A stretch of 64,000 nucleotides of DNA. Source: Vicia villosa. Its lineage: Eukaryota > Streptophyta > Magnoliopsida > Fabales > Fabaceae. Below are positions 6,171 through 60,957 of this stretch, piece after piece (position 1 is the stretch's first letter; every line of letters begins with the position of its first letter). Both the position numbers and the translations under genes were made by a program. The stretch spans positions 310,001 to 374,000 of the forward strand of contig NW_026705220.1 of the NCBI RefSeq assembly GCF_029867415.1, given 5' to 3'. The notes under the pieces are model-generated. The model saw only the letters and a program-made list of their open reading frames with translations, was not told the DNA's origin and did not search any database.

Positions 6171-6526
6171 TAGGTCGACCTCTTGTAGAGCTTAGGTTGA
6201 CCTAGCAGTGCTTGCAGAATTTTGCTCCCAGTTAGGTCGACCTGTTTAAGGAGTAGGTCGACCAGAATCCTCTCAAAATGCATTCTGGGGACATTTTCTC
6301 AGATTAGGTCGACCTAGTCGTTGTGTAGGTCGACCTAGCAGACTGGTATGTAAATTTCATCAATTTAGGTCGACCTGGATGATGTGTGAGTCGACCTAGC
6401 AGAAGTATGTGGATTTTTCTCCATTTTAGGTCGACCTGGGTTGACAGTAGGTCGACCTAACTGCTGGTTTTCTGCATTCTTCTTGATCTGCTTGTGTTGA
6501 GTCGACCTAAAGTATAATAGATCAAC
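6171..6526. repeat. Array of paired TAGGTCGACCTA palindromes in copia U3
   Basis: Ten exact GTCGAC cores start at 6174, 6236, 6257, 6308, 6329, 6369, 6390, 6430, 6451 and 6501. Two decayed copies start at 6196 (GTTGAC) and 6521 (ATCAAC). They form six pairs with spacings 22, 21, 21, 21, 21 and 20 bp; successive pairs are 62, 72, 61, 61 and 71 bp apart. Most copies extend to AGGTCGACCT. The spacer sequence between copies is not conserved, so this is not a simple tandem repeat. Both decayed copies differ by C-to-T or G-to-A changes at the CpG. Confidence 0.93.
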
Positions 6527-6661
6527 ATGTACTGTCATGAGTGATCAATGCTTGTTTTTCTTTGAGTTTTCTGCTTCCGCCTTGTTGTTTGAATGCTCAT
6601 TTGAGTTTGCCATAAATCAAAAACATCTTTGAGTGTAATCTTGTATTCCCAACAGTGCCAT

Positions 6662-6965
6662 ACGCGTATGGGATGAGGTCATACGCGTATGGGGGACACT
6701 CCCAATGGGCTATACGCGTATGATACGCAGTTGCCCTGTCCCAAATACCACGTACTGGTGTTTTGCGTATGAGGAGCGTATGAGGATGCTCATACGCGTA
6801 TGGAAATTTTGAAAGAGGAAAATTATTCTGGTGATACGCGTATGACAAGACTGATACGCGTATGAGGTTGCTTTTGGGCAAAACCTGGTCTGTTGAAATG
6901 CGTATGATACGCGTATGAGGCAAGGGGATACGCGTATGGGCGCGTATGGACCCTATGATACGCGT
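6662..6965. repeat. Array of ATACGCGTAT palindromes
   Basis: Exact ACGCGT cores start at 6662, 6683, 6714, 6794, 6836, 6856, 6909, 6930 and 6960. Degenerate copies are near 6725, 6763, 6774, 6898 (ATGCGT) and 6940. Many neighbouring spacings are 10-11 or 20-21 bp: 6662-6683, 6763-6774, 6774-6794, 6836-6856, 6898-6909, 6909-6930, 6930-6940, 6940-6960. Others are 31, 38 and 42. The word is unrelated to the copia word, but its length, CpG content, symmetry and spacing are alike. Confidence 0.9.
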
Positions 6966-7128
6966 ATGGTTTCCTGCATGTGAAATTTCTGTTTTGTGAT
7001 TTTTCTGGAAAGTTCGATGTTGTGTAACTTTCGATTTGTAGGCCTGTTTGTATGCTGTTTTAGACTGTGTAAACCTTGTGATGTGATTCTGCGGTTTACT
7101 GTTGATTGATTGTATTGAATGATGTAAT

Positions 7129-7137
7129 GTATATATG
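7129..7137 (+). promoter_or_regulatory. TATA-like box of the left Tekay-like LTR
   Basis: GTATATATG about 165 bp downstream of the ACGCGT array in LTR sense. It is a weak but well placed match; nothing else supports the start site. Confidence 0.35.
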
Positions 7138-7966
7138 AACATGCTTAGTATTGTTGATGATGATGATGATGATGAAATGAGTATAGATGATGCTACTCAT
7201 AGAATGGTAATGATGAAAGTATGTTATATATATGTTGCATGCATTCATAAACATGGGCTGAATCCTAGATGATGAGAGGATTCAGTGAGGGGCAGAATTC
7301 CCATTGTGTGGAATTGGTGCTGGCAGGGCCGTATCTGGATGATGATAGATCGGTCGGTGGATGATTTCCACTGGTGATGATTGGTACCACATGCATAGTG
7401 TCAGTTTCATACATGTGCATGATTTGTTTATAGCATGATGATATATGTTACATGTTGACTGTCTGTTTATCTGTGGATGTGTGAATGATGATTTGTCTGA
7501 ATATGAAACAATTGGGTGAATGATATAACTATGATATGTTATTATTTATGATGCAATAACATTGGTTAACTGTGATGAGACTCACCCTTACTTGTTGTCA
7601 TTTTCAGATTGAGGATAGCGGCGCGACTTGGTGAGGATTAGCTCATAAGTCGGTTTCTAGTTATAGTGTCGGTGTCATGCTCTGGTAGATGTAACACTGG
7701 GAACACGTTTGTTTTGAGTTGATTATAACTCTAATTGGTTTTGTTGGTTGAGTCGGATACATTAATGATGAATGTTGAGTCTATGTTTTTGATTCCGCTG
7801 TGTAAAACATGATTTTATTTAATGAGTTATAATTTCAGTTGTTTCAGTGAATGCATGATATGTACCGACATATGTTTTCTTCATTTTATGAATTGTGATG
7901 CCTCTCTACATGTTTACTCTGATTAATAATTATTTAATTGCCGCGGGTTATTAGAGGGGTGTTACA

Positions 7967-9125
7967 TAAAGTAGTAACCTCTTCACATCGGGGAGTTACT
8001 ACGGTGTAGATTGTGTTGTAATCGAGTTTTGGAGCACTTTGGTTGAAGTTTATCATATCAGCCTTCACTTTGTATCAAGATTCAATCTCCGATCGGAGTA
8101 AGGTTCAATTTACTTGCTTTATTTATTTTCTTGCTCTTACCATAGTCTACAAGTTTTATAGACTCTAAATGCTCTTACAATAGTCTACATGTGTTATAGA
8201 CTCTAAATGCTCTTACCATAGTCTACAAGTTTTATAGACTCTAAATGCTCTTACCATAATCTACAAGTGTTATAGACTCGCACCCTTTTATTACTCGCAC
8301 TTACCATAGTCTACATGTGTTATAGAATCGCAATTACTATGTCTAGCTAAATCATAAAGGTTTGAATGTAATGATTGTGATCATGTCTGTGTTCTAATTG
8401 TCGCATTAGTGAAAATACTCCGGGGATGTTTTACTTTTAACTTAAGTCAAATTGTGCTTAAAATGTTTATTGGGTAAGATCGAAAGCCGTCCATATCAAA
8501 GATAGACTTGATTATTATTTAACCAAGCAAAAGAAGTGAAAGCGATTTGGTTGGTTAAATAGGAATCATTAACTCTTTTTAGAAAACGATTTTGAAACTA
8601 TTTTCAGACGCGTTTGTAGGTTTGAAATCTGACTCTTGGTCAAAAGCCAAGAGTCTCTTTAAGTTAATCTTTCCAGGTAAAATCACTTTTCTGTTAAGTC
8701 AAAACTATCAATTTCTTAAAAATAGATTTACTACTTTAATGCGGAAGGCACCCTTTATATGTGACAATAAAGGAAGTTAAATTAAAGAGTAAATTCGGTT
8801 CTTAGTAGCCAAAAGCTACAAGTTCCTGTTAAATTGGTTCTTTGCTACGAATAGAGAATACTGCCCCATGAGTTGTTTCACTGATGCATGTCTAGAACAT
8901 TGTCTGGTTTCATGATTTACATCCCAACCTATCGCTTTTAACTGTTATTCACTCCACTCACTTACCTTGTTGCACTGCACTCACAACAATATTCCTGTTC
9001 ACCTTAGATAAGCACCTTAACAATAGTGTTGATAGATTGACGATTGGTCTCTGTGGTTTGATAATCTTTTATATTACTTCGATAGGCTGTGCACTTGCAG
9101 TACTATATTTAGGCTATACGTTACA
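7967..9125 (+). mobile_element. 5' LTR remnant of the Athila-type element
   Basis: Bases 7967-8430 align without large gaps to 58947-59411, the 3' LTR, with about 13 substitutions counted by eye. The left part of this LTR is displaced by the Tekay-like insertion. The right end is set at TTACA (9125), about 15 bp before the primer binding site; the exact end is uncertain because the matching end of the 3' LTR is outside the window. It includes a run of short repeats and no coding sequence. Confidence 0.8.
8124..8335 (+). repeat. 38-bp tandem repeats in the Athila LTR
   Basis: About five imperfect copies of a unit built on CTCTTACCATAGTCTACA followed by TTATAGACTCTAAATG, period about 38 bp. 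The same block occurs in the 3' LTR near 59113-59310, so it predates insertion. Confidence 0.85.
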
Positions 9126-9140
9126 GACCCATAAAGTTTT

Positions 9141-9223: not shown

Positions 9224-9976
9224 ATGCGTAGAAATCATAGCACCGGTAACTTATTAAACCCTTTAGTGGAACCCGAACGTTACGTCCGAGCACGTCTGTT
9301 TATCCTTAAATTAAGGAAAGCAATGGCTGAAGACCGTAACCAAAGATCACTTAAAGAGTTTGCTCAACCATCTAATCAGGAGCCCAGTTCTAGTATCGTA
9401 AACCCCGTTATAACAACCAACAATTTTGAACTTAAGCCCTCACTAATTCAAATAGTTCAACAAAACCAATTCGTTGGTCTCGCTACAGAGAACCCGAATC
9501 AACACCTAAAAGTGTTTATCCAGTTAGCCGACACCCTTAAGGCAAATGGAGCCACACCTGAAGCCATCCGCTTAAGATTGTTTCCTTTCTCCCTTAAAGG
9601 TAAAGCCCGTGACTGGTTAGACGCCCTTCCAGCCAACTCAATAAAAACTTGGGAAGACCTTAGGAGAGCCTTTCTTGCCAGATATTTCCCACCGAGTAAG
9701 ACCGCTGTCCTTAGGAACCTGATCACCAGTTTCACTCAAAACCAAGGCGAATCACTTTTTGATGCTTGGGAAAGATATAAAGAACTTTTGAGAGCCTGTC
9801 CACACCATGGCCTAGAGCAATGGTTAATCATGCACACCTTTTATAATGGACTCCATTACAACACTAAAATGTCTATTGACGCTGCCGCTGGCGGAGCGTT
9901 GATGAACAAACCTTATCCCGACGCTTGTGCCCTGATAGAGGACATGGCCCAAAACCATGCCCAATGGGGGATATAA
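9224..9976 (+). pseudogene. gag: Athila-type gag, N-terminal part
   Basis: 250 codons from an ATG 64 bp downstream of the primer site. The capsid region is recognisable from FPFSLKGKARDWLDALP, WEDLRRAFLARYFPPSKT, GESLFDAWERYKELLRACPHHG and FYNGLHYNTKMSIDAAAGGALM, motifs of Athila/Calypso Gag. The frame closes at 9976 within a region where Gag should continue, and the downstream part (9977-10241) is in shifted frames. It is therefore a broken copy. Gag would form the particle shell in the cytoplasm. Confidence 0.85.
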
Positions 9977-10241
9977 CCAGCAACGGTAGAGAAAAAGGAG
10001 AGCCATGGAGGAAAGCATGAGATAAGCTGCATGAACATGATGAATGCTAAGATGGACACTCTGGCCTTAAAATTCGAAAACATGTCTCAAAACCTACCAC
10101 GGTGGCAGCAATCCAATCAGAGTTCGAGCTCTGTGGAATTCAAGGACATCAAACCATTGATTGTAACCTTTTAAACGATTCTGGCTCAAACCAAGTTAAC
10201 TATACCCATGGAAATCCTTCCTCGAACACATACAATCCTGG
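9977..10241 (+). pseudogene. Decayed C-terminal gag / gag-protease linker (Athila)
   Basis: Only short shifted frames remain. One, near 10015-10110, reads like the MNAKMDTLALKFENMSQN coiled-coil segment that follows the capsid domain in Athila Gag. Several stops and frameshifts are present, and a complete zinc knuckle could not be followed. Confidence 0.6.
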
Positions 10242-10529
10242 ATGGAGAAATCACTCGACTTAGGAAATCATATGATAGACAAAGCATTTCTGGACTTAGG
10301 AGCAAGCGTATGTCTGATGCCCTTGGCTGTCTGTAAGAGGTTAAAACTAGGAGAGCTTCAACCTACTAAGATGTCGTTACAACTAGCCGATAGATCTGTT
10401 AAATACCCCATAGGTATCTTAGAGGACATACCTGTCAAGATTCGTCAGTTATACATTTCGACTGATTTCGTAGTTATGGATATCAAAGAAGATGATGACA
10501 TCCTAATCCTTCTAGGTAGACCATTCTGA
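10242..10529 (+). pseudogene. Athila-type aspartic protease
   Basis: The retropepsin-like fold is recognised by FLDLGASVCLMPLAVCKRL, where DLGAS stands for the D[ST]GA active-site motif, followed by LQLADRSVKYPIGILEDIPV and the closing ILLGRPF. The frame ends in TGA at the position where the protein would normally run on, and the following codons still read as family sequence (TTGAIIDVKKGKLTFEV). It would cleave the Gag-Pol polyprotein. The Leu in place of Ser/Thr also occurs in Athila proteases, so it need not be a defect. Confidence 0.8.
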
Positions 10530-11086
10530 TCGACCACTGGAGCTATAATAGATGTTAAGAAAGGGAAGCTGACTTTTGAGGTAGGAGATGAAAAGATCGA
10601 GTTCATTCTATCAAAATTTCTAATGGCACCAGTGATAGGAGATGCGTGTTATGCCATCGCGTCATCGATGAATGTGTAAATGAGCTCAACGATTCCTTAA
10701 TCAGATTACCTTCTACCCCCATTTTAGAGGATAACGGATTTAAGAGTATGGAACCTTACATTGACGAAAAACTTTTTGAATGCTTAGCACTTACCCCCGA
10801 CCCTATGCCGTGCACCAAGAAACCTACCATAGAACTTAAGGAACTACCCAAGAATCTAAGATATGAGTTTTTGGATGAGGAGATGAATCGACCTGTCATA
10901 ATAAGCGTCACTCTGAACCAAATCGAAACAAACCAACTCTTAGATACCTTGCGGAAATATCCCTCAGCTTTAGGATACAAAGTCTCTGATTTTAAAGGAA
11001 TAGGTCTGTCTGTATGCATGCATCGGATTCTGCTAGAGGAAAATTCGAAACCCTCGAGAGAGCATTAGAGAAGAATAAACCCTATC
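10530..11086 (+). pseudogene. Protease-RT linker of the Athila polyprotein
   Basis: Continuation of pol. The best open stretch (10646-11068) contains LKELPKNLRYEFLDEE and LLDTLRKYPSALGYKVSDFKGIG, the segment that precedes RT in Athila. It ends in a frame break at 11068, where family sequence would lead straight into RT. No separate function is expected. Confidence 0.7.
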
Positions 11087-12610
11087 ATGAGCGATGTAGT
11101 GAAGAAAGAGGTCCTTAAGTTATTAGAAGCTGGCATCATTTACCAGATTTCGGATAGTGAGTGGGTAAGTCCCGTCCATGTGGTACCAAAGAAAGGAGGT
11201 ATCACTGTCGTGGAAAATGAGAAAGGTGAGCGTGTAGCAAAGCGGACCGAAGGAGGATGGCGCATGTGTATAGATTACAGAAAACTGAACAAGGCGACTA
11301 GGAAAGACCATTTCCCTCTTCCATTTATAGATCAGATGCTTGAGCGTCAAGCTAGACACTCGTATTTCTGTTATCTTGATGGATACTCTGGTTTTTTCCA
11401 AATCCCTATTCACCTAGAGGATCAAGAGAAAACCACATTTACTTGCCCTTATGGAACATTCGCCTACAGAAGAATGCCCTTTGGGCTCTGTAATGCGCCC
11501 GCCACTTTCCAACGCAGTATGATGTCGATTTTCGCAGACTGTCTCAATGGAATCATGGAGGTATTTATGGACGATTTTTCGGTGTGTGGATTTGATTTTA
11601 AAAACTGCTTATCGAATTTAGAGAAAATCTTAGAAAGATGTGTGGAAGTAAACCTTGTGCTGAATTGGGAGAAGTGTCATTTCATGGTGAACGAAGGGAT
11701 AGTCTTAGGACACATCATCTCCGAGAGAGGCATAGAAGTTGACAAGGCCAAGATAGAAGTTATAGAAAACCTAAACCCACCTAAGACCGTTAGGGAAGTG
11801 AGGAGTTTTCTAGGTCATGCTGGATTCTACCGACGCTTCATCAAGGACTTTTCTGGAATAACTAAACCATTAACAAACCTATTGATGAAAGATGTCGAGT
11901 TTGAATTTGATAAAAAATGTCTTGAGGCCTTTGAAGTTTTAAAGCAAGCACTGATTTCAGCGCCTATCATACAACCCCCTAATTGGACGCAACCCTTTGA
12001 AATCATGTGTGATGCAAGCGATTTCGCTGTAGGAGCCGTATTAGGGCAGAGAAAAGATAAGAAACTGCATGTCATTTACTATGCTAGTAGAACCCTAGAC
12101 GCTGCCCAGCTTAATTATACAACCACAAAAAAGGAATTGCTAGTCGTCCTGTTTGCTATCGATAAATTCTGATCTTATTTGGTAGGAGCCAAGATAATAG
12201 TATACACTGACCAGGCTGCAATCCGATACTTGTTAAGTAAGAAAGATGCTAAGCCTAGATTGCTCAGATGGGTTCTCCTACTCCAAGAATTTGACCTTGA
12301 TATTAAAGATAAAAAGGGAATAGAGAACTTAGTTGCTGACCACCTCTCTAGGTTAGAACATCTTAAACCTGAACTAATACCCATAGATGATCACTCCACC
12401 TACGAAAGGCTAGTAGCTGGGATGAACACTGTTGAGAAGGACACCCTAGATACCCTTGGAAAAGAAACCTTTGAGGAAATCTCAACCTTGAGTAGCGCGC
12501 CATGGTATGCAGATATTGTAAATTATCTGGCCGCTGATATCATACCCCCTGACCTAAGTTACCAACAGAGGAAGAAGTTTTTCAGCGATGTTAAACACTT
12601 ATTCTGGGAG
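11087..12610 (+). pseudogene. pol: Athila-type reverse transcriptase and RNase H
   Basis: RT motifs in order: VSPVHVVPKKGG, WRMCIDYRKLNKAT, YLDGYSGFFQIPI, MPFGLCNAPATFQR and the catalytic FMDD at residues 160-163 (EVFMDDFSVCG). RNase H follows with FEIMCDASDFAVGAVLGQ, then a TGA at 12170-12172 where an Arg codon (CGA) is normal. The same frame continues (12173-12610) with [15 protein letters not shown] and the connection region [11 protein letters not shown]. At 12610 the coding sequence is cut by the 39.7-kb Ogre insertion and resumes at 52325-52330 in the same protein. It would copy genomic RNA into DNA in the particle. Confidence 0.9.
12606..12610 (+). repeat. Left target-site duplication of the Ogre insertion (GGGAG)
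   Basis: GGGAG precedes the element start TGTTAGC, and GGGAC (52325-52329) follows its end TAAACA. One base differs. Taking GGGAC as the original, the Athila reading frame passes through intact. Confidence 0.75.
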
Positions 12611-13563
12611 TGTTAGCTGAAGATTTCGTTTGGAAAAAATATTCTTCGAAGGTTTGAAATTCGAAGGAAGATGGTTACTGATGACCATCTTTTTTGGGTC
12701 AAAAATGGCTACTGATGGCCATGTTCGAGAATGATGGTTTAAGTTGGAGCGGAGACAGTTAGCACTAAAGTTAAATTCGAAAGGAATCATCTTTGGAGAC
12801 TTAGACATTTTTACGAAATATGTAAAGTACTGAAGCTTAACGTATTTTCGTGGCATTCTCGATTCTGATTACGTTGCCACGCGTCGAAAGAGGATTCAGG
12901 CGGGAGGATTTGAATTTCGAAGAAGTTTTTATAACTGCACAAAGACAGATGGCATCCCAAGGATTCTCGGGAGTAACGTGGCATCAAATTAGTGTAGGAC
13001 CGTTAGGGTCGAATTTAGTATAAATAAGGGTCTTAGTATTAGGATTCCGGGTGTTCATTTTGTACAAATCACTCACATATTGCTCAAGTATCAAGTGTTA
13101 AGAGAATGAGTTTCGCTGAGAAATGTACGTATGACACCAACACCATTTTAAATACCTTTGTATCTTTCGTTATTCAAGTATCTTTTGATATTATTGCATT
13201 TCGTTTACTTTCTGTCATTTACATTCCTGCACTCTTTATTTTCATTCTATTTAGTTTCGAAGCATTTAAGTCTCTACACTTTAAGATTCTTGCACTTTAC
13301 AGTTTTTGTCTTATATTTTATCTTTATCTTACCTTTCGCTGATGTTGTATTTACGTGTATAACAAGGTGATTGTTAATCTTTATTTCTTTGATTAAGCAT
13401 TTCTTATTTCGAGACAAGCCAACCATAGACATGATTCGAACTATCATGAGTAACAACCTTTTTGACTGTCCTAGGATCAATCTAGTCGATCCTGCGAGTA
13501 ACCAAATCGTATTTATTATAGTTTAGAAGACTAGCGGTTGTTTACCGGAAATCACCGTAAACA
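12611..13563 (+). mobile_element. 5' LTR of the Ogre/Tat element
   Basis: Starts TGTTAGCTGAAGATTTCG, ends ATCACCGTAAACA, and is followed by a primer binding site. Nearly identical to the split 3' LTR. The T-rich stretch 13106-13342 holds short ORFs that are not convincing genes. A TATA-like ATAAATAAGGG lies near 13021. Confidence 0.9.
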
Positions 13564-38919: not shown

Positions 38920-39055
38920 TGTAATACGGTGAACTGACTTTTACGAAATGTGCAGATAGCAAGAGTCGCCACCGACTTTTATTTTATCCAATATAGAAAG
39001 GCTAAAAGAACAGGAAAAGACCTTTTAAAAAGATTTTGAGCTCGGGGGGTAAGTT

Positions 39056-42056: not shown

Positions 42057-42113
42057 TTATCGAAATAAAAATGACATTTGCAAATATATGAGGGCAAATT
42101 TTGGGGTATGACA

Positions 42114-42126
42114 GCTGCCCCTGTTC
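42114..42126 (-). other. Polypurine tract of the non-autonomous element
   Basis: The minus strand reads GAACAGGGGCAGC immediately before the LTR start TGTCATACCCC. Confidence 0.7.
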
Positions 42127-42419
42127 AATCTTCTTGAACCTGAAGATGTAGAGTGGTTTGTATGCCAATAGGAATATGAAGGTGGAAGAGGATTGAACAC
42201 TAGAATACCCAGGAATTTGTCCTAACTGATGATGAAGGGACTCTTGTCGGAGATGGGCTTGAAGATGCCATCCAGGTGTTTGGAGAAGATGTATGATTGA
42301 GATGGTCTTGAAGATGCCATCCAACTTGATATACTTGAGAGTCAGAATGTGTCGTACGTTAGACTGTTTCTGAGGAATAGACTTAGGTTGAGTCGTACGT
42401 TAGACTGGGTCTAGTTTGC

Positions 42420-42660
42420 ATCAGCAGATGTCTGGAAAACCGTGCGTTAGGTTGAAGGATGAGTCGTGCGTTAGACTGAATCCAATTTGCATCCGTAGAT
42501 GTCTGGAAAACCGTGCGTTAGGTTGAAGGATGAGTCGTGCGTTAGACTGAATCCAATTTGCATCCGTAGATGTCTAGAAAACCGTGCATTAGGTTGAAGG
42601 ATGAGTCATGCGTTAGACTGAATCCAATTTGCATCCGTAGATGTCTGGAAAGTCGTGCGT
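42420..42660 (-). repeat. 71-bp tandem repeats
   Basis: Four copies with period 71, marked by AGATGTCTGGAAAACCGTGC at 42426, 42497, 42568 and 42639, in the non-coding interior close to the 3' LTR. Confidence 0.9.
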
Positions 42661-42699
42661 TAGGCTAGATCCTTTGTATTGAGAAGTATTTGTTAGAGA

Positions 42700-43065
42700 T
42701 TAATCGTGTCCACACCGTTCGTGATGATGAAATTTGATCTTTTGTCGTGTCAGCACCGTTCGTAGTAACTGAATTAGACTTTGGAGAAGTTGATCGTGTC
42801 CACACCATTCGTGATGATGGAATTAGATCTCTTATCGTGTCAGCACCATTCGTAGTAACTGAATTAGACTTAGGAAAAGTTGATCGTGTCCACACCGTTC
42901 GTGGTGGTGGAATTAGATTTCTGAGAGTTGATCATGTCAGTACCGTTCATAGTAACTGAATTAGATCTTTGGAAATGATCTTGTCTACACCGTTCGTGAT
43001 GATAGAATTAGACCTTTGAGCGTCGACCATGTCAGTACCGTTCGTAGTAACTGAATTAGATCTTT
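42700..43065 (-). repeat. 90-bp composite tandem repeats
   Basis: Alternating half-units CGTGTCCACACCGTTCGTGA and CGTGTCAGCACCGTTCGTAG, period about 90 for the pair (starts near 42705, 42795, 42885), then two decayed pairs. Confidence 0.85.
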
Positions 43066-46526: not shown

Positions 46527-46797
46527 TTCCTTGCTGAAATAAACAGCGGAAAGATGAGGCATTTGTTTTTATGAAACCTGTGATGCGATGTTTATGAAGG
46601 ATATGATTATGCATATGCAATGTTTTCAAGGACCTTGAAATTTAAATTTGCTTAAACAAGAAAGAAAGAACAAATTTATTAATAATAATAATAATTAACT
46701 TGTACTTAGTTATGGTTCTTTGCCACTTTTAGGCTTACAAAAGAAAACAAATAAGTAAAACAACTAGATATAATAATAGTAATAAGATAAAACTCCT

Positions 46798-48140
46798 TCA
46801 AGTCTCCCATGGGCGCTTCCTCTTTGATCCAATGAAGTTGTTGATACCTTGCTCCGCCTGAAGTAGTCTTGTGAGTTCTAACACTTGTTTCTCTTTAGCA
46901 TGGAATTGAGCCTCAAAAGTATCTCTTTCTTCTTTCAATTGAACCCATGACTTTTGTAGTTCTTCTAAATCGGTAGGCATGTCCGGATGGAGAATAACCA
47001 AAGGAACCTTTTCTTCACATTCAGGTTCAACAATCACAGGTCTAACATAGGGATATGGCATGACAAAACGTTGAGCGCGAGTGCGCACCCATCTAAGATA
47101 AGGTTCTGAAGGAAAGGAGTTCTTTTGCCCCCAACTTTTGCTATCAACCTTGTACACTTTATTCCAAGCGCGTATGAACTCTCGGCGTTGGTTTTGAACA
47201 TCTTCTTCATAGTTGAAAACAACCCCTTCAATAATCAAGTGATGAGGACCATCTCTTAGAGCATAACCAAACTGTCGTAGGGCTAATGAAGGATTGTAGG
47301 TGATTCCCCCTCTAATGCCAAGGAGAGGCACATTAGGGAATTTCCCACAATGATCGATCATAGTGACGTACTCCTGAGATATGACGTGCCAACGGATATC
47401 TGAATGAGAAAGTGACATGATTCTTCGAGACCATTGCATCTTTTGATCGTTTCTGACCACTGAACGCGGAAGGTGCGAAATAAACCACCTAGCTAGCAAG
47501 GGTGTGCAACACATAAGAGTCCCTCGCTTCTTCATGATACGGGAGTGAAGAGAGTGCAGAATGTCTCCCAGTAGTGTAGGCACTGGGTTGTGGGTTAAAA
47601 GATCTTGATTGCGTGCACGTCAATGAATTGATCAGGATTAGGAAACAAAACCAAACTATATATCAATAAAGCCAAAACATCTTCAAAAGCATGGTAACTC
47701 ATGACTTTCAGAAATTGTCGAGCTTTTCCAAATAAGAATTTGGCCGAGAGACCTTCGACTCCATTCTTGGTGTCCCAGTTGGAAGCAATGTCTGATCTCT
47801 TTAGGTGTAGTGCAGCAACAATAGTCTCAGGTTTGGGAGTGCTCTCCAAACCAGTAAAGGGTAAATGCTCAGAGATGGGTATACCAAGTAAATCCGAGAA
47901 CTCCTCCAAGGTAGGTACCAACTGATAATCTGGAAAAGTGAAGCAATGATGATCGGGATCGAAGAATTGGCATAAGACTCTCATCATATCTTCTTCAAAT
48001 TGGGAGGTGACCAGTCGGAGTAGATAACCATGTCTTTCAGCAAACTTAGAATCTCCAGGAACTTCTAAGGCAAGCTCCTTAAGCTCAGAAGGTATCCCCA
48101 CGAAGTTGAGTCGTACATAATCCCTAGTAGCAAAAGCCAT
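46798..48140 (-). pseudogene. Ogre-type ORF1 (DUF7745-like), one frameshift
   Basis: ATG at 48140 (MAFATRDYVRLNFVGIP). Segments CFTFPDYQLVPTLEEFSDLL and GIPISEHLPFTGLE are hallmarks of the ORF1 protein found upstream of gag in legume Ogre elements. The frame stops near 47595 at a run of four Ts and resumes one frame over from 47593 (PTLLGDILHSLHSRIMKKR, CCTPLLARWFISHLP, YALRDGPHHLIIEG). It ends in a coiled coil (LEELQKSWVQLKEERDTFEA) and a basic tail at 46798. One lost T in the run explains the break. Its biochemical role is unknown. Confidence 0.8.
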
Positions 48141-48844
48141 GTCCTACAAAACAGTACAAATATAAATTTCTTGGTCCTTGAAATTGTTAGTGGATATGAT
48201 ATGCCATGATGTCGTAATGCCAAGTAGATAACAAACACAAGCAAGTCACACAATTGCCTTAAGGGTAGGCTTGCATGAAGTCCATAGGTATATACCCTTC
48301 TTCCTTTCGTTTAGTTGGTTCAACCTGTCCTAAAAGTAACCAGGTTCTATGGTGCTCATATCCCTGATCTTTCTCGTGGGCATTGTCTCAACATAGCACT
48401 CAATCGGCCAGCCAAAAGCATCCCTTGAGTCCAATCTCAATGAGTGTAGCATCGAGTATCAACCGGCTTCAGTCAGGAATCCGAAGCCTGCCATCTCGCT
48501 ACTTCTTATAAGCCAAAGTCAAGTTCAACTAAGGTTCTAAAGGCGAATTAGTGCTCATGACACCACGCGGTAGCCAAATGTCTCCTCGATCAGATTCAAG
48601 GGCCATCAAGACAAACCAAAGCGTCGCACTAACGGTGGCCACCAGTTCAACCATAACGATACATGTCGTACAACTTCCCTGGTCTCATGCCACATACTTA
48701 AGGTACACTAGATCCGGGTGTAGGATCTTTCACACAGCAGAATTCCTAAAACAGCCTTGAAAATTAAGACAAGCAAAACAAACAATAGAAAACAATTAAA
48801 GTGAATCCTAAACTTTTAAGGTAACCCCTCTTTTATCGAATTTT
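48141..48844 (-). other. Leader of the non-autonomous element
   Basis: About 700 bp between the primer site and ORF1 on the minus strand. No gene seen. It would be the 5' untranslated and packaging region. Confidence 0.6.
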
Positions 48845-48861
48845 CCCCAGCAGAGTCGCCA
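48845..48861 (-). other. Primer binding site of the non-autonomous element
   Basis: The minus strand reads TGGCGACTCTGCTGGGG four bases after the LTR end. This is the primer site usually reported for Ogre elements (tRNA-Arg). Confidence 0.75.
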
Positions 48862-49001
48862 GTTCTGTAATACGGTGAACTGACTTTTACGAAATGTGCG
48901 GATAGCAAGAGTCGCCACCGACTTTTATTTTATCCAATATAGAAAGGCTAAAAGAACAGGAAAAGACCTTTTAAAAAGATTTTGAGTTCGGGGGGTAAGT
49001 T

Positions 49002-49034
49002 ATACAAAGGGAAGGTGTAAGGCACCCTTTGTAT
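49002..49034 (-). promoter_or_regulatory. Conserved LTR hairpin (5' LTR copy)
   Basis: Identical to 39056-39088. In the 5' LTR it would lie in the leader of the genomic RNA if the transcription start is upstream of it. Confidence 0.7.
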
Positions 49035-50709
49035 CCATGGTTATCCATGGGCTCTTAATTGCTTAGCTCACTTGTTTGTTTGAATCATTTGAAAAGATTT
49101 TGAATAAGAAAAGATTTTGAAGAAGAACTTTAGCTTGTAAATAAGCGTAGTCTTTTTGAAAAGATTCTTTGAAAAGAGGTGTGAAAAGTAATTTGAATTT
49201 TAGAGCAAGCAATTAGTAGCAACTACCCTAAGTTTGAAAAATCGTTCTTTTAGCTTTTTGGGCGAAAGGATCTATCCATACCATGAGAGGGCAGGAAGTC
49301 TTTCAATTGGATGTTAAAGGGTCATCGAGAAATTATCGTTCACCACAAGACTGTCCCTTGCCATAAAAAAGGCAGGTAGTCTATGGGAAGGATATAATAG
49401 TCATTGAATCTGTTTAGGCATCATGCGAGGATACCTTAGCAATAGGGACAATCACTCTTTATAAGGAAACCTCGGGGGAGTTTCAATAACTTTGAAGGCA
49501 ACATTACATTAGGTATCCTCGGAATCGAGGGACTTTGACTATTTAGCATACTTAGAGGCAACAGGTTTATAAGGCAACAGGCAACAAAGGCAACAAGAGG
49601 GATTACCCTAAAGGTGTGTGTGTGGCACAATCACGTGGTTAATTCAGATATTGTTATCTTGTAATTAGTGATCTAATTTAGTTCAAGGCTTGCACTCCCT
49701 AAGATTACTAACCACAGCAGAAAAATAAAGGCAGAATGAAAATCCTACGCTATTACAATAAACACCTGCGGGGATGGGGAATTAAAAGGCAAAGAATAAG
49801 AAGGAACAATAATTAATCAAAAAATCTTGAATGTCCTGATCTTCCTTGAACCTTCGATTGACCCGACTAATTGAGCTTTGACGGTTGGCTAACCCTGAAA
49901 ATTGGAAAAAGAAAAATAAACACACAGGGTGAGTGTATGGCCAGTTCATTGATATTGAAGATAAAACCATAATTTCAAATCAGAAAGGCAAAAATAAATA
50001 ATTAACTTAAAAGGCAAAAAATAAATATTTAAATTAAAAGGCAAAAATAAATATTTAAATTAGAAGAATAGAATCAAGAACTTAGCTTTGATCCGATATG
50101 GCTCGTAGTCGGAGGAAATCCTGGTGCTAACCCTGAAAAACTACACAAGAAAAACATTTTCAGTGCAGGCATGATCTTCGTAAACCTTGATTAGGTCACA
50201 AATTAACTATGATTAATAGAATAAATAAAAAACCAAATTAATTAATTATTGGTTTTTAATCTAATCACCTAATCCTAATATGTATTTTTTTTATAAAAAA
50301 AAAATTATAATTAATTAAATAATTAAACAATTAATCTAAACATTTAATTATTTAAGTCAATTAAAATAAATATTTTTAATTTGAATGTTTTTATTGAGAA
50401 AAAAGAAATTTATAGCAAAATGTTAAAATAGAATATAAATATAAAAAAAGTTTTGAAAGACTAGATATAAACAAATAAATAAAAACTATGTTATAAAAAA
50501 TAAAAAAATAAAAAATTTAGAAACACTCAGCTCATGTTCCGGTGTGGTGAGCTTGTGGAGGTGCATGGTGGTCCTTCGTATTCAGGTGCGTTGGATCCAT
50601 TGAGAAGCTGATCGGATGGCTGCTGTAGCGAGGGTCCATCAGGCACATGCGTGAGCCAACCATACTGAATCTGCGAGCAACAAAGTTCATGAAAAATTAA
50701 AGGAAATAA

Positions 50710-50785
50710 ACGCAAGAGGCAGGGAACGAACCCCTGCCCTTGCGTATGAAAGACGTAGCGCACTGCCAACTGAGCCAGTTATGAT
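50710..50785 (-). promoter_or_regulatory. tRNA-like sequence with A and B boxes (5' LTR)
   Basis: Same as 40764-40840: B box 50722-50732, A box 50766-50777, one substitution outside the boxes. Confidence 0.6.
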
Positions 50786-51736
50786 TGCTGATATTGAATT
50801 GGGCTGGGATTAATATAAGCAATTAAATGACGTTAATGAACTAAAAAAAACGCCCAGACTTTGTCTTCCTCGTGAAAACTAGAACTTTCAGCCACGGTTA
50901 CTTCATGTTGCTGTGGACCTGTGTAAATCAAAACCTAAATAATACTACAGATAATTTCAAGATAAAACCATGGATCAATGCGAAATCGACCCCTGAATTC
51001 AACTGCGCTATTAGTTTCGTCCGATTTTGGCTCTAACCCGATTTCCCCAAAATCACGAACATGAACCATGGCTATGGTGATTCATAGTACCTGCAACTAA
51101 ACTCCAATTAAACATCACAGATAGTTTGCAAACATCATTCTAAACGCAATAGTACAATCCAAACATGTTTATGATGCACAAATTCGGCAATTCGATTTAA
51201 AAAAAAAGAAGAGGAAAACCGTGAGGTGTGAGACTGGGTTTCTGGAGGCTTCGATCAATGGAAGCGATATGGTTCGTTTCAGAAAGCCACGAGAAAAGCG
51301 TTTTGGATGCGTGAGAGAGCTTGAATTGGCCTCAAAATTTGTTTGCCACAGCACTTGAATTCACGTTTTGTTTTTTGGAACTCCCCTATCTTTCTTGCCG
51401 CGGCCAATCCTCTTCTTCTGTGTGATGCTGCTCTGTATTTATAATGCCAAATTAGGTCTTTCAAATTAATTCCGGATTCAATCTTGTTAAATGCTGATTG
51501 AGTGATATTGAGGATGATTGAGATCTAATGTATCTGAAAGTTTGTAACCGAAACCGTGAATCTTGGATGTCCTCTTTTGCTTTGCTTTAAATCTGGTACT
51601 TGTGAGAAATCTCTTGTTGCAGCTTTTGACTAATTCTTTTATAATAACAACATTAATAATGAAATCTACCTAAAATAAGAGAAATTAAAATTCTATAAAA
51701 CTAAAAAACTTTACTAAAAACGTGACACAAAGAAAT

Positions 51737-51738
<2 letters not shown>

Positions 51739-51813
<75 letters not shown>
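51739..51813. repeat. (TA)n microsatellite, expanded in the 5' LTR
   Basis: About 75 bp of TA repeats; the matching site in the other LTR (41799-41815) has only about 17-20 bp, so the length changed after insertion. Confidence 0.93.
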
Positions 51814-51819
<6 letters not shown>

Positions 51820-51981
51820 TATTTTTTATTTTTATGATGATACTAAATCCTAATATAAAAATAGTAAGTGTTTATTTTATTTATTTAATGGTAATAATAT
51901 TATTATGGTAGTAATAACATAATAAAATTATAATTAAATGCAAAATGACATTAGAAAATAAGTTTAACATATGAAAGGAGG

Positions 51982-52054
51982 CGAAATTCGAACTCGGGTC
52001 TTTTCACCTTTGTACCTTTCACGCTTAAATTCTTACCAACTGGACCATGTCAAT
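51982..52054 (-). promoter_or_regulatory. Second tRNA-like sequence, near the LTR start (5' LTR)
   Basis: Same as 41985-42056: B-box-like 51984-51994, A-box-like 52036-52047. Confidence 0.45.
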
Positions 52055-52110
52055 TATCGAAATAAAAATGACATTTGCAAATATATGAGGGCAAATTTTG
52101 GGGTATGACA

Positions 52111-52115: not shown

Positions 52116-52324
52116 GTATAACAAGGTGATTGTTAATCTTTATTTCTTTGATTAAGCATTTCTTATTTCGAGACAAGCCAACCATAGACATGATTCGAAC
52201 TATCATGAGTAACAACCTTTTTGACTATGTCCTAGGATCAATCTAGTCGATCCTGCGAGTAACCAAATCGTATTTATTATAGTTTGGAAGACTAGCGGTT
52301 GTTTACCGGAAATCACCGTAAACA
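52111..52324 (+). mobile_element. 3' LTR of the Ogre/Tat element, second part
   Basis: Begins with the second TACGT copy and continues with the right-hand 209 bp of the LTR to TAAACA (52324), differing from 13355-13563 by one substitution and a 2-bp indel. Confidence 0.92.
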
Positions 52325-52329
52325 GGGAC
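52325..52329 (+). repeat. Right target-site duplication of the Ogre insertion (GGGAC)
   Basis: Partner of 12606-12610 with one mismatch at the last base; the Athila coding frame resumes here. Confidence 0.75.
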
Positions 52330-53514
52330 GAACCCCTCCTATTTAAAAGGGGAATAGATAATATCTTCAGACGATGTGTGCCAGAAGAAGAAGTAGGCAA
52401 CGTCATCGAACACTGCCATGCTGCCCCTTATGGCGGACATGCAAGAACATCTAAGACATACGTCAAGATTTTCCAAGATGGTCTTTATTGGCCTACAGTT
52501 TGGCGCGATGTCCACGCTTACATTTCAAAATGTGACCGATGCCAACGCATTGGGAACATCTCAAGACGTGACGAAATGCCTTTGAGTAACATCCAAGAAG
52601 TAGAATTATTCGACGTTTGGGGTATTGATTTCATGGAACCCTTCCCTTCCTCAATGGGTAATAAGTACATCCTAGTGGCCGTTGACTACGTATCAAAGTG
52701 GATCGAAGCTGTTGCATCACCCACAAATGATACCAAGGTAGTTGTCAAACTATTCAAGAATATCATTTTCCCTAGGTTTGAAACTCCGAGGTTAGTCATA
52801 AGGGATGGAGGATCACACTTTATATCTAAGATATTCAACAAACTTCTAAGTAAGTACGGAGTAAAACATAGAGTGGCAACACCATATCACCCTCAAACTA
52901 GTGGCCAAGTGGAAGTGTCGAATAGGGAAATTAAGAAGATCTTGGAGAAAACTGTATCATTGTCTAGAAAAGATTGGTTAGCAAAACTTAGAGACGCTCT
53001 ATGGGCCTACCGAACGGCCTATAAAACCCCTATTCGAACAACCCCTTATCAATTGGTCTACGGAAAGTCCTGTCATTTACCTTTTGAATTGGAACATAAG
53101 GCCTATTGGGCAATTAAAACATTGAACTTAGATTACTTGAAGGTCAGAGAGAAACGTATTCTGGATATCCATAAGTTGGAAGAACTCCGCTTAAATGCGT
53201 ACGAGAATGCCATCATTTACAAGGAAAGAACCTAGATAAGGCATGACAAGAAGATCATAAAGAAAGATTTCAACATTGGCGACCCAGTCCTCCTATTCGA
53301 TTCAAGACTAGGTCTCTTCCCTGGTAAGCTTCGCTCACGATGGACAGGTCCATTTGAAGTTTCGAAAGTTCTACGGTCAGGAGCAGTAGAAATTAAGAAT
53401 GATTCATGTGCCCCGTTTGTGGTAAATGGACAAAGACTGAAGTTGTACAAAGGGGGAGATCAGCCCGTTGGTTACTCTAGTCATATTCTTATAGACTCTC
53501 CAATACCTACATAA
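52330..53514 (+). pseudogene. Athila-type integrase (resumes after the Ogre insertion)
   Basis: The Athila polyprotein continues from 12610. The HHCC zinc domain runs from [16 protein letters not shown] to CDRCQRIG; the catalytic triad lies in [20 protein letters not shown] and [18 protein letters not shown] at 53233-53235 interrupts the start of the C-terminal domain. The same frame continues through DFNIGDPVLLFDSR, LFPGKLRSRWTGPFEV and VNGQRLKLYKGG to TAA at 53512-53514. The core domain is well preserved. Confidence 0.9.
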
Positions 53515-55570: not shown

Positions 55571-55608
55571 TGCCGCGCCCGCGGTGAGCCTGCCGCGGCC
55601 GCGTGACG
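55571..55608. repeat. Paired CpG words upstream of Athila extra ORF B
   Basis: TGCCGCGCCCGCGGTGA at 55571 and TGCCGCGGCCGCGTGA at 55591, 20 bp apart, in an otherwise AT-rich area. The same CCCGCGG word is paired 20 bp apart in the Athila LTR (58771, 58791). Confidence 0.8.
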
Positions 55609-55784
55609 TAACGGTCACCTAACGGCTAGTTGCTCGAAAACCACACCATTCTTCCCCTTTTCCATTTCCAATCCCATTCTCTACCATTCCTAATCCCCCA
55701 TAACTCCCATTATAATCCATAACCACTCCACCACATTAATTTCCACCATAAATACTCATCAACCACCACTTTCTTCCACCACCT

Positions 55785-55792
55785 ATAAATAC
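55785..55792 (+). promoter_or_regulatory. TATA box upstream of Athila extra ORF B
   Basis: TATAAATA followed by a pyrimidine-rich leader to the ATG at 55884, with the CpG word pair about 190 bp upstream. Suggests an internal promoter. Confidence 0.5.
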
Positions 55793-55883
55793 CCCCTCTC
55801 TTCTACTTTCTTTCTCATACCTTCTCCATCTCTACACTCCATAACCTTCCTACTCTCTTTGCATCCATTTTCAAAAAGATCCC

Positions 55884-57346
55884 ATGGAATACCAAGGCTA
55901 CATTTTGCGAGAAGGCAAGCATGGCGACAAGCAACGTCAACTACTCGAAAGGTTGACAACTACACCCATCCACTCTACAAGGTATATCGATGAAAACTCT
56001 CTCTACTCTTTAGGCATATACCATAGTGTTTTCTTCCTTTTAGATAAACTAGGCATGCATGATATCTTTGCCACACAAGCACCCACCTTCCCTAGGCTGA
56101 CGTGCGAATTTCTAAGTTCCTTAACATATAACGTCTCGCCTAACACTGCTAGTACCGTAGGTGGAGTCAAATTTAGAATGTTTAATGTTGAATATGACTA
56201 CTCCACCGACGGTCTAGCAGCCTTGTTAGGGTTTCCTTATAGGGAGGGTGTCATTTGTGAAGCACCCCTGGACACGGATTGGGCATTCGAAGCATTTTGG
56301 GCCAGAATCACTACTCAAAATTCAAACTCTTTTGATGGCCTACTTGCTTCGCATATCCACAATCCTGCCCTTCGCGTCTTCCGTTTCCTTTTAGCATCCA
56401 CCATCTTTGCTCGGGAGAACCCGAACAAAGTGAATGCTAAGGAACTAATTATCATGCAGAGTTGCCTAGCGGACACCAAAGTGAATCCGGTCCCGTTTAT
56501 GATTGCCCATATGCACCATGTTGTAAGGAAGGGAGGACCGATTTCCTTTGGTGGCTTGATTACCACTATTGCTCGTGCCATTGGTTTGGACACCGAGCTT
56601 GCCACTCTCGACCCACTTCCCCTCGTATTGCAAACCTTAAGTTTTTAAAAGATATGCGTTTGTCCAAGACGAGGCGGGAAGGTGGTTATTACCTTATGGT
56701 TGGTGGTGCCGCCGTACCATGTGTTGTTATGCCTTGTACCCATCGCACTGATATCAGATTTGAGCACAACTGGACCTACGATATAAATGCCCCAGATTTT
56801 ATTGGTCCGTTTCCCCCAAATCTACCTACAGATGAGGGTAATAACACCGATGATGAGTTCGACTACCGTACGGAGGAACCACCCCACTTTTCACCATCAC
56901 ACACTGCACCCTCTTCTTCTAACCCTCATGCAGGTACCGCTCCCACTTTCCATGTCACTGAGGACATGTGGCGTAAGCTCATGGCCCGAGAGGCCCAGAG
57001 GGATACCCTCCTTGCTACCATACAGCAACAGGCCGCTGACAACATGGCCTTCATGCAAGCATCCCAAGTGTAGAATGCCCGCTCTCTGCAAACCATTATG
57101 GAAAGTCAACTGGCTTTCCAGAATGAGCAGCACCGTCATCAGACAACATATGTTAGTCACTTCCGCCTGATGGAAGCTACCCAAGGTACCCTCCTTGGTA
57201 GGACACAATAGCTACAAGCGGCAAATGTCGTTTTGACAGAGAGGATGGAGCAGCTGGCATTGGGAAGAGAGCGCCGCCGCCGTAGTCGTAGCCGCCGTTC
57301 CGACCGTACCGACCAGGACGGTGAGGGAGCTAGTGGCCCCCACTAG
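55884..57346 (+). pseudogene. Athila extra ORF, copy B (ATHILA ORF-1-like)
   Basis: Starts MEYQGYILREGKHG. Shares with copy A the segments TRYIDENSLYSLGIY, LDKLGMHD, TCEFLSSLTYN, FRMFNVEYDYSTDGLAALLGF and HIHNPALRVFRFLL. A frameshift near 56600-56640 moves the reading into 56640-57073 (LSKTRREGGYYLMVGGAAVP). Two TAG codons (57071-57073 and about 57209) interrupt the tail, which ends in an Arg/Ser-rich, nuclear-signal-like stretch (RERRRRSRSRRSDRT). Preceded by its own TATA box. Two such genes in one element suggest duplication or a second capture. Function unknown. Confidence 0.68.
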
Positions 57347-58677: not shown

Positions 58678-58797
58678 CGCGCCGGCTATAGGGGACGCGA
58701 TGACATGGCCCACTTCATGATGGAGCCAAATGCCACGATCACACGATCATGTCCGTTACTCCTCACTGTGCCCGCGGTGGAGCTGCCTCGCCCGCGG
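58678..58797. repeat. CpG word pairs in Athila U3
   Basis: CCCGCGG at 58771 and 58791 (20 bp apart), and CGCG words at 58678 and 58696 (18 bp apart), in the U3 about 70-190 bp upstream of a TATA box. Confidence 0.75.
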
Positions 58798-58867
58798 CCT
58801 TCACAAAAAGACTCCCGCTCAAAAGGAGTTGAGGGGCACTCCTGTCTTTACGCTGATCCAGAATCCA

Positions 58868-58876
58868 CTATATATA
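58868..58876 (+). promoter_or_regulatory. TATA box of the Athila LTR
   Basis: CTATATATA in the 3' LTR about 70 bp after the last CpG word. Confidence 0.6.
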
Positions 58877-60691
58877 GTTTAGTTTTTCATTTTCGTTTTT
58901 TTATCCAAGCTTAGTACAAACTTAAGCCATATACCATCAGTATATGTAAAGTAGTAACCTCTTCACATCGGGGAGTTACTACGGTGTAGATTGAGTTGTA
59001 ATCGAGTTTTGGAGCACTTTGGTTGAAGTTTATCATACCAGCCTTCACTTTGTATCAATATTCAATCTCCGATCGGAGTAAGGTTCAATTTACTTGCTTT
59101 ATTTATTTTCTTGCTCTTATCATAGTCTATAAGTTTTATAGACTCTAAATGCTCTTACCATAGTCTACATGTGTTATAGACTTTAAATGCTCTTACCATA
59201 GTCTACAAGTTTTATAGACTCTAAATGCTCTTACCATAATCTACAAATGTTATAGACTCACACCCTTTTATTACTCGCACTTACCATAGTCTACATGTGT
59301 TATAGACTCGCAATTACAATGTCTGGCTAAATCATAAAGGTTTGAATGTAATGATTGTGATCATGTCTGTGTTCTAATTGTCGCGTTAGTGAAAATACTC
59401 CGGGGATGTTTTGTAACACCCTTCTAAACCCCGCGGAAATTAATAAAACAATTCAGAGTAAAACATGAAAACAAGGGTGCCACAATTCAATTATAACAAA
59501 TTTTCATAAATCAATTGTCATGCTTCACTTAGGGGAAAATCATCCATTTAACAGAATCATGTTTCTATACAGCGGAACAATAATCAACAGATAAGCATAA
59601 CATCATCTATGCAATATCCCACAAAATTACTCCAATAACAACAAAATAGAGTATCATCATAAACTCTAAACTAACGTTCCCCCAGGGTTACAATATCAGA
59701 GCATGACACCGACGCTATACCAAATAAACTGACTCATGAGCTAATCCTCACCGAGCCAAAAGCCGCTACTCGCCAATCTGAAATCATCAAAGTAAGGGTG
59801 AGTCTCATTCTCAATTAATCAATGTTATGCATTCATAAGCAACAAAACATCATAATATATCATTCACCCAATTTGTCATATATTCAGATTCACATCTACT
59901 ATTCATCAATTCACACAATAAAAGAATACATTACCAAAAGACAACACCATAACAATTACACCGTCATCAAATATTATAACATTGGACAATCTTCCATTCA
60001 TGTTATAATTATACACAACAACCTAATGCAAATGCAACTATATGCATGTGGTACCAAACATGGGATAACCCATCTCACCGATCCACCACCATAAAGATTC
60101 GGCTACTTCTCTCACCAATTCCACACAATGGGAATTAGCTACCGCTGTCCCACCACCATAAGGGATACAGCCCACAACATGATTATGAAATGCATGTATC
60201 AACCATAACATGCTCACCATCAACATTAAACAACCAAATGTCATAATCATCAACCACCACGACAATCAATAGCCACACACAGTTATGCTATTTCTCAACT
60301 ATAAATAAATACATATTTTACATCAACAATATATGTATATCAATTACCAGTTACAACCACGACATCATAGCAGATAAAACATTCACCACACAGTGCAACA
60401 ACATTAGCACCCCTCACAATCGTGTACCAAGTACAACAAAACAACCCAACAATAACAGAGTATTTACATCATCATTCATCAAAACACATGATAACCATAT
60501 TTACCATGAACAACATCCATTTTGCATAACAAGCAGAAACAATTACATTATAACAACATCCATCATTGCACGTATTCAATTATGCAAACAACAAACCATG
60601 GCACCTCATCAACTATACAAAACAAGAATAAACCACATTTGGAGAAAACGATACTTTTCAAAAGAAAATCAAGTTATTGTTGTTATATTTA

Positions 60692-60699
60692 TTTTATAT
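60692..60699 (-). promoter_or_regulatory. TATA-like box of the right Tekay-like LTR
   Basis: The minus strand reads ATATAAAA about 115 bp downstream of the CpG word array in LTR sense. Confidence 0.4.
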
Positions 60700-60811
60700 G
60701 GTAGAACATTCAATTTAAGGAACAACGTCCAAAACGGCGTCTAAAACGGACTTACGGTTTGAAAGTTACACATTTTTACATTTTTCAAAGAAAATAATTA
60801 CCGCTACAGCA

Positions 60812-60957
60812 CGCGGCGCCAACCGGGTTCGCGGCGCGAAACGAGAAAAACTTACGCCTTCGCGGCGCCAACACATGGACGCGGCGCGACCTGAGCGTAT
60901 CACAACTTCCTGGTTTTCTGCCCAACGGTTCGCGGCGCAAACAGTGGTTCGCGGCGC
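60812..60957. repeat. Array of paired CGCGGCGC words
   Basis: CGCGGCGC starts at 60812, 60830, 60861, 60880, 60931 and 60950: three pairs with spacings 18, 19 and 19 bp. The first of each pair continues CCAAC or AAAC, the second GAAAC or GACCTG, so the pairs are ordered, not random. Confidence 0.92.

Follow-up and report, generated by a model that had tools for sequence, protein, structure and literature searches.

Which functions could explain short CpG-containing words that recur in dense arrays in the long terminal repeats (LTRs) of different retrotransposon families? This question is raised by a stretch of 64,000 nucleotides (64 kb) from Vicia villosa (contig NW_026705220.1, positions 310,001 to 374,000), in the following called the window. 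It consists of nested retrotransposons: an Athila element holds a Tat/Ogre-type element, which in turn holds an Ogre-like element, both Athila LTRs are broken by Tekay-like LTRs, and a Ty1/copia element on the minus strand splits the first Tekay-like LTR at 6655. We refer to the Tekay-like LTR 1 family as Tek1, to Tekay-like LTR 2 as Tek2 and to loci fetched from the genome by L-numbers; genome-wide counts apply to the assembly of 2.03 Gb in 1888 contigs. We take Tek1 and Tek2 to belong to the Tekay/Del chromovirus lineage, and lineage names beyond the Pfam matches are likewise our assumption.

With a probability of about 60% the words are putative target sites of proteins that bind DNA sequence-specifically and most likely come from the host, and these sites lie on one face of the helix and form cis-regulatory modules of the retrotransposons. 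Host proteins would bind the words, the array would act as an enhancer or promoter module, the binding would drive transcription of the retrotransposon, and families would change their words while the array stays in place. By direct computation the arrays are non-random, the Tekay-like words diverge less than their spacers, inherited changes are depleted in the Tek1 words, the spacings are phased at ~10.2 bp, the ACGCGT and GTCGAC words recur in unrelated superfamilies, and one Athila module is found in two places. Binding at the level of DNA is suggested because of the phasing, the conservation of the words among drifting spacers and the modules located before two Athila TATA-type sites.

Non-random arrays with helical phasing

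The words named in the first-pass annotation were all recovered: GTCGAC ten times at 6174-6501, ACGCGT nine times at 6662-6960, CGCGGCGC six times at 60812-60950, and CCCGCGG at 58771 and 58791 in the Athila LTR and at 55578 at the internal site. For nine U3-side stretches, the highest copy number of any CpG palindromic hexamer was compared with 2000 dinucleotide shuffles. The copia stretch with 10 copies and the Tek1 stretch with 9 copies were not equaled by any shuffle (0/2000 each). Tek2 failed with 2 copies (940/2000) because its word is odd-centered and the test counts even palindromes. The window copy of the Athila LTR, in which the words have lost CpGs, also failed (157/2000), and the site upstream of the Athila env-position open reading frame (ORF) gave a modest result (12/2000). 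In addition, the whole 64 kb was scanned without using the annotated words, for identical dyads with 4-base arms, a gap of 0-3 and a CpG inside, located within 400 bp. Clusters of at least three dyads occurred in exactly three places, one each in Tek1 (nine dyads, 6661-6959), copia (eight, 6173-6450) and Tek2 (three, 60830-60950); 50 shuffled windows contained zero such clusters and 0.28 pairs per window. One of five clusters of two was the Athila env-upstream site (55574 and 55594). Enrichment over shuffles was seen in the window LTRs of copia and Tek1, for Tek2 only in the dyad scan, and not in the Athila LTR copy. Word arrays in four LTR families hold up for copia, Tek1 and Tek2, whereas for Athila exact pairs come from other copies.

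The Ogre-type LTRs had been said to lack an array. This is correct for the Ogre-like element at 38933-52110, where the single copy is not significant, but the Tat/Ogre-type LTRs at 12612-13020 and 38177-38583 contain TTCGAA four times each (3/2000 shuffles each, uncorrected for the nine stretches). Two of the four TTCGAA copies are ~19 bp apart, and the set of four is possibly a weak array.

A sample of LTRs chosen independently of the words was obtained from Met-type primer-binding sites: of 3032 such sites, the first 100 in the list were thinned to every fifth, which gave 20, all on contig C1. Six of the 20 LTRs contained a dyad cluster (L109, L117, L118, L120, L123 and L125; each 0/100 shuffles), and arrays are therefore common yet far from universal among the plant LTRs sampled. 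A Sirevirus-like LTR without a dyad cluster, L136, has CGGTTCC six times upstream with a period of ~45-48 bp.

The distances between words lie near multiples of the helical turn: 21, 40, 50-51 and 62 bp in copia, 20-21, 30-31, 42, 54 and 79 bp in Tek1, and 19, 32 and 51 bp in the Tek2 type. A scan of periods from 8 to 14 bp over four word groups, which left out the second copia copy L001 and locus L003 (close to L002), gave a best period of 10.2 bp with a mean coherence of 0.76. When each spacing class was shifted by up to 5 bp, with repeated spacings kept together, this coherence was reached in 0/2000 runs, and in 3/2000 without the GTCGAC Tekay-type group. With the period fixed at 10.2 bp, six held-out loci yielded a mean cosine of 0.58 (4/10000), or 0.77 without L123 (0/5000). 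For the 13-letter ACGCGT word, the different spacings that occur in 15 clusters listed on contig C1 gave 11/5000, a value that is not independent because Tek1 copies are included. The annotated pairing at 18-22 bp is present, but it belongs to a series of distances that lie close to multiples of 10.2 bp. Nucleosomal DNA also has a period near 10.2 bp, and the cause of the phasing may be related to nucleosomes.

Constraint, sharing and position of the words

A comparison of 30 copies of the Tek1 family revealed a divergence of 1.5% in the words, 9.1% in the spacers and 3.9% in the rest of the LTR. The same order was found for CpG sites, with 1.3% in words, 7.7% in spacers and 5.2% outside the array. 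The ratio of singleton variants, present in one copy, to shared variants, present in two or more, was 36:6 in words, 78:54 in spacers (Fisher P=0.0014) and 722:335 outside the array (P=0.017); these P values are approximate because the copies are related and were chosen by similarity of the LTR 3' part. Nine CpG transitions were found in the Tek1 words, none of them shared between copies. Since singleton changes occur in the words and shared ones are depleted, changes in the words appear to arise after insertion and to be seldom inherited, which is the pattern of purifying selection in a transposing lineage. In LTRs of the GCGCCGCG type (25, that is 24 loci and the window, L059 being dropped as it has no donor motif) the divergence was 8.5% in words, 27.2% in spacers and 17.6% outside.

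Two of the words, 12-13 letters long, are common to Ty1/copia and Ty3/gypsy LTRs. Words of the TAGGTCGACCTA type with GTCGAC are present in the Ty1/copia element (window and L001) and in the Tekay-type loci L002-L004. The ACGCGT word TGATACGCGTATG is present in the Tek1 family and in L109, with 7892 places genome-wide against 2 for the reversed control; the LTR of L109 has two features known from Sireviruses, the poly-C signal and the primer site, its lineage being read from the LTR alone. When the words were masked, the spacers of word-sharing LTRs were not significantly similar (69/300, 25/300 and 69/300 shuffles as high). Because the same word stands in unrelated elements with dissimilar spacers, one reader protein per word is favored, and this would probably be a protein of the host. 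The proposal that each family has its own word does not hold for GTCGAC and ACGCGT. Two further candidates were not counted as shared words: CGCG-N-CGCG in L120 (Sirevirus-like clade) differs in its flanking letters from CGCG-C-CGCG in Tek2, and AACCGGTT was found in two loci of uncertain lineage, L123 and L125.

In Athila the word is the 12-letter dyad CCGCGCCCGCGG. With spacers of 6-10 bases allowed, 33 exact pairs were found genome-wide, 31 with an 8-base spacer (20 bp from start to start) and two with 9, and none in the reversed control; two of the spacers with 8 bases do not appear to be related to the others. Among 20 fetched Athila LTR copies, CCGCGCCCGCGG was exact twice at 20 bp in eight, one or both words were changed in 12, and CTATATA followed ~70 bp downstream of the module in 17. 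At the env-upstream position, 10 of 20 fetched copies had at least one CGCG-N2-CGCG dyad, nine of them the full CCGCG-N2-CGCGG, and two (L078 and L081) a pair 20-21 bp apart. No intact dyad was detected in L071, L072, L074 and L077, and the module was not found in L080 and L083-L087, six distant copies with 37-74% identity at the protein level. A TATA-type site was present at the matching place, ~100 bp before the env-position ORF, in 15 of 20 fetched copies. The LTR and env-upstream modules of the window are identical in 24 of 28 columns, a value reached by 0/1000 shuffles and 0/73 other Athila segments. One Athila module thus appears to serve both positions, and the annotated second site at an internal promoter was confirmed as a module upstream of the env ORF, with the modest shuffle result given above. 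The Athila LTR further contains ~38-bp tandem repeats in both of its fragments (8132-8279 and 59112-59259).

Both Tekay-like LTRs of the window have a 23-letter block, ATTCCCATTGTGTGGAATTGGTG, in common, which occurs at 1178 exact places genome-wide (control 0). At 29 of the first 30 block loci a CpG word was found at least three times within 1000 bp upstream, namely the GCGCCGCG type in 25, ACGCGT in three and GCGTCGAC in one; L045 had none. The LTRs of L002-L004 with their GTCGAC words resemble the Tekay-like lineage in the word-masked comparison, and at least four different words therefore occupy one place of Tekay-type LTRs. The block (7262-7360; L035-L064) sits downstream of the variable arrays, and CCGCGG is located ~20 bp from the same end of both Tekay-like LTRs (7941 and 59430), kept although the LTRs are only 73% alike there.

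Of 63 Tekay-type loci, 57 have a donor-like motif, AGGTAAGG, and the distance from this motif to the start of the array was 302-354 bp in 13 representative loci; an AACTTT-type block follows where the stretch is long enough. An acceptor-like TTTCAG lies downstream of the array in Tekay-like LTRs (L006, L035, L055 and others; the window sites 59773-59784 and 61258-61265 flank the array), and in many copies a TATA-like CATAAAATA is located ~110-140 bp upstream of the donor-like site. From this order of signals, the Tekay-like array may lie in a transcribed, intron-like stretch. A genome pattern search for LTR copies lacking the stretch from donor to acceptor gave 3 matches, all acceptor variants with the upstream sequence retained; no spliced copies were found by this pattern, and the candidate splicing is a sequence-based proposal. 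The annotated position upstream of TATA fits copia and both Athila sites but not clearly the Tekay-like LTRs, where the array follows the donor-like site and the TATA-like sequence is further upstream. The word of the Tek2 type is directional, with 151 of 151 exact copies in one orientation, so that binding by a symmetric dimer may not fully account for this word; tandem duplication alone could also maintain this orientation. The suggested sites for DNA-binding dimers are accordingly supported as to DNA binding, by the phasing, the constraint on Tekay-like words and the Athila module, and a dimer is plausible for the symmetric words.

Competing explanations and points against binding

An action at the level of RNA is unlikely. 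Neighboring palindromes would form hairpins in the transcript that feed small-RNA silencing or aid RNA packaging, as suggested for maize Sirevirus LTRs. The arrays of copia (z -8.8) and Tek1 (z -5.8) indeed fold much more stably as RNA than shuffles, and in the available text of Martin et al. 2023 (PMC10760457) structure and small RNAs are reported at palindrome clusters of maize Copia LTRs. The Tek2 array, however, has no excess of RNA structure (z -0.26, 69/200 shuffles at least as stable), a hairpin results incidentally wherever a palindrome is present twice, and helical phasing of the word starts is not expected from hairpins.

No better chance is given to anti-silencing of the VANC type, in which a methylation-removing protein would recognize the word of its own family and be encoded by every family or by a single master family. 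As far as the accessible parts of PMC5735166 and PMC10398659 describe them, VANC motifs likewise form dense tandem repeats of uniform orientation, are located upstream as well as within introns, and undergo turnover from family to family; the VANC6 motif also occurs in an unrelated element (AT9TSD1), and by analogy one element's factor could be used by others here. An element-encoded factor, one of the meanings offered in the first-pass annotation, is disfavored because of the words shared across superfamilies and the short Tek1 interior. Tek1 LTRs of ~1.95 kb are mostly paired ~6.5 kb apart, which leaves ~4.5 kb between them, and roughly this length is needed for gag-pol. Among ten window ORFs, Pfam identified no DNA-binding family beyond retroelement domains and no VANC-type family, the copia and Tekay-like elements being incomplete in the window.

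A methylation-sensitive switch, in which the symmetric CpG of each word is read as methylated or not, is less likely still. Every word discussed here contains a CpG, RM clusters of Sireviruses define predicted CpG islands (PMC2829016, available text), and Del LTRs of monocots have a variable 5' CpG island (PMC4029996, available text). However, singleton CpG transitions per site amount to 0.25 in the Tek1 words and also 0.25 in the LTR 5' part, with 0.08 in spacers and 0.09 in the LTR 3' part. No lasting protection is seen, since the word CpGs decay after insertion like the LTR 5' part, and the switch, the second meaning offered in the annotation, did not emerge from these rates. The flanking letters are kept too, as non-CpG sites in words differ by 1.6% against 9.1% in spacers. 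Sensitivity to methylation may be an added property of binding sites.

Tandem duplication, by which a random unit expanded in the LTR with a period from nucleosome wrapping or copying and left functionless words, fits the repeated units of ~61 bp in copia and 51 bp in the Tek2 type as well as the nucleosomal period mentioned above, but is just as improbable as the switch, given that words change less than spacers despite the mutability of CpG, that inherited changes are depleted in words and that the phasing survives a null which keeps repeated spacings together.

Several results weigh against host proteins bound to DNA. Athila words diverge as their surroundings do (LTRs 4.8 and 4.6%; env-upstream 13.9 and 14.7%, from the window copy and 14 fetched ones, after L080 and L083-L087 had been left out of the 20), and in one Tek2-type sub-group of four the relation is reversed, with 2.5% in words and 0.0% in spacers. 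Tek1 alone prefers a period of 10.7 bp, and a period of 10.2 bp does not fit L055 and L123. In Tekay-like LTRs, transcription may start upstream of the array. By the same dyad criterion 14 of the 20 sampled LTRs had no array, and 11 of these 14 were still without a cluster after 951 more upstream bases. Finally, the sharing of words could reflect an old exchange of arrays between elements, or chance.

A more far-reaching version of the binding-site reading, whose chances we put somewhat below even, is that one grammar operates in both LTR superfamilies. A few CpG dyads on one helix face, in steps of ~10.2 bp, would be read by a few host proteins; a family could replace its word, also inside a single lineage and with the array at an unchanged place in the LTR, as though it were evading word-specific silencing or acquiring new activators; and in Athila a single module would serve the LTR and the env-upstream promoter. 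The Tek2-type word is presumably similar to the E2F consensus, and the CGCG words to the CAMTA site; a literature search on E2F yielded nothing of use, and neither protein is claimed as reader.

Layout of the window and comparison with known systems

Features of the window (LTR, long terminal repeat; ORF, open reading frame; PBS, primer-binding site; PPT, polypurine tract)
Feature	Position	Strand	Description
Ty1/copia LTR	5110..6655	-	internal part 181-5111 (-); Pfam RVT_2, rve, Retrotran_gag_2 in ORFs; LTR ends, poly-C stretch and PBS-like sequence read
copia word array	6172..6508	-	10 exact GTCGAC, word TAGGTCGACCTA; spacings 50, 21, 40, 21, 40, 21, 51, 21, 62
TATA-like stretch	6108..6118	-	~55-60 bp downstream of copia array; read from sequence
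Tek1 LTR	6656..7966	+	5' part severed by copia insertion; basis: homology to LTR 2, 40 scored family copies
Tek1 word array	6659..6968	+	9 x ACGCGT within CATACGCGTATG-type 12-mers, plus half sites
Tek2 LTR	59413..61781	-	followed by PPT-like GGGGGAG at 61785-61791
Tek2 word array	60804..60962	-	6 x GCGCCGCG, single orientation; odd-centered dyad CGCG-C-CGCG in three
Splice-donor-like AGGTAAGG	61258..61265	-	upstream of Tek2 array
Athila 3' LTR module	58766..58797	+	two CpG-decayed CCGCGCCCGCGG copies, start to start 20 bp
TATA-like CTATATATAG	58868..58877	+	~70 bp downstream of Athila LTR module
Athila env-upstream module	55573..55604	+	CCGCGCCCGCGG and CCGCGGCCGCGT, start to start 20 bp
TATA-like CTATAAATA	55783..55791	+	between Athila env-upstream module and ORF
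Athila env-position ORF	55845..56648	+	stop to stop; Pfam PF03078 ATHILA, E 3.5e-20

The coding parts of Athila (9224-12172 and 52225-53235, in addition to the env-position ORF) contain Ty3-type reverse transcriptase, RNase H and integrase domains together with ATHILA in Pfam; PF03078 has at least 151 matches genome-wide. A search of viral contigs gave no relatives. The copia element has the coding order gag_pre-integrase, rve, RVT_2 (Pfam), which is the Ty1/copia order. A gag/protease region of the chromovirus type adjoins one copy of the Tek1 family. Beside Tekay-like LTRs in two family loci, gag, protease (RVP_2), Ty3-type capsid and SH3_Tf2-1 domains were identified; a chromodomain gave no hit in these two loci.

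The first-pass annotation knew of no earlier description of such a system, but the copia case corresponds to the RM boxes of Sireviruses. According to the available text of Bousios et al. 2010 (PMC2829016), palindromic RM boxes are present in the LTRs of 13 Sireviruses close to the TATA box, in nine Sireviruses with an env-like gene they are also found near env, nearly always upstream, and they are called Sirevirus-specific among the copia elements compared. The copia array of the window similarly has many copies of a family-typical palindromic CpG word just before TATA. Where at least eight palindromic CpG copies mark an RM array, it has ten exact GTCGAC and eight exact GGTCGACC, and the last word is followed by the TATA-like stretch at the short distance given in the table. 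The Vitis RM box CGGTCGACCG has the core of the copia word; the word itself, AGGTCGACCT, is without the CGG-CCG core of 12 of the 13 boxes published there, as is Tnd-1. Of the Sirevirus signals, a CCCCCCC stretch stands close to the end of the LTR, the PBS-like AGTGGCATCAAGAGC departs from GGTATCAGAGC, and multiple PPTs would lie outside the window. The Tekay-like and Athila arrays, with their Ty3-type domains, do not belong to Ty1/copia Sireviruses but would work like RM arrays. In the same text 'helical' and 'spacing' occur once each, neither about RM boxes.

The Del (Tekay) CpG islands described by Cruz et al. 2014 (PMC4029996) are also similar to the Tekay-like arrays, being a CpG-rich, fast-changing 5' part of LTRs in the same chromovirus lineage. 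In the available text these islands are variable in monocots and absent from five eudicots, and 'palindrom' has 0 occurrences, whereas here a eudicot has dense word arrays. The VANC system, as far as covered in PMC5735166 and PMC10398659, belongs to VANDAL DNA transposons and uses an encoded binding protein. Its arrays resemble those of the window in dense short motifs, non-coding tandem repeats, one orientation and family-wise turnover; its motifs YAGTATTAY, AGTTGTCC and AGTTGTAC have no CpG and are not the array words of the window, which contain CpG. Palindromes of maize Sirevirus LTRs, cited in PMC10760457, likewise form clusters in the cis-region and are read there through RNA structure; in the part of that paper available to us, RNA structure peaks in maize Copia LTRs, with no obvious peak in Ty3 elements.

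In the open-licence literature we did not find this architecture in Tekay or Athila, a helical period or words across superfamilies, and an earlier description is possible. What distinguishes the present arrays from RM boxes is their extension to the Ty3/gypsy Tekay-like and Athila LTRs, the helical phasing and the words that cross superfamilies; together with the selection test, these are the new points. The arrays bear on what switches plant retrotransposons on and on how they outpace silencing. If host proteins common to several families bind these arrays, the LTR of each family would point to the protein that reads it, and Sirevirus boxes, Del CpG islands and the Athila env-upstream site would become one testable system.

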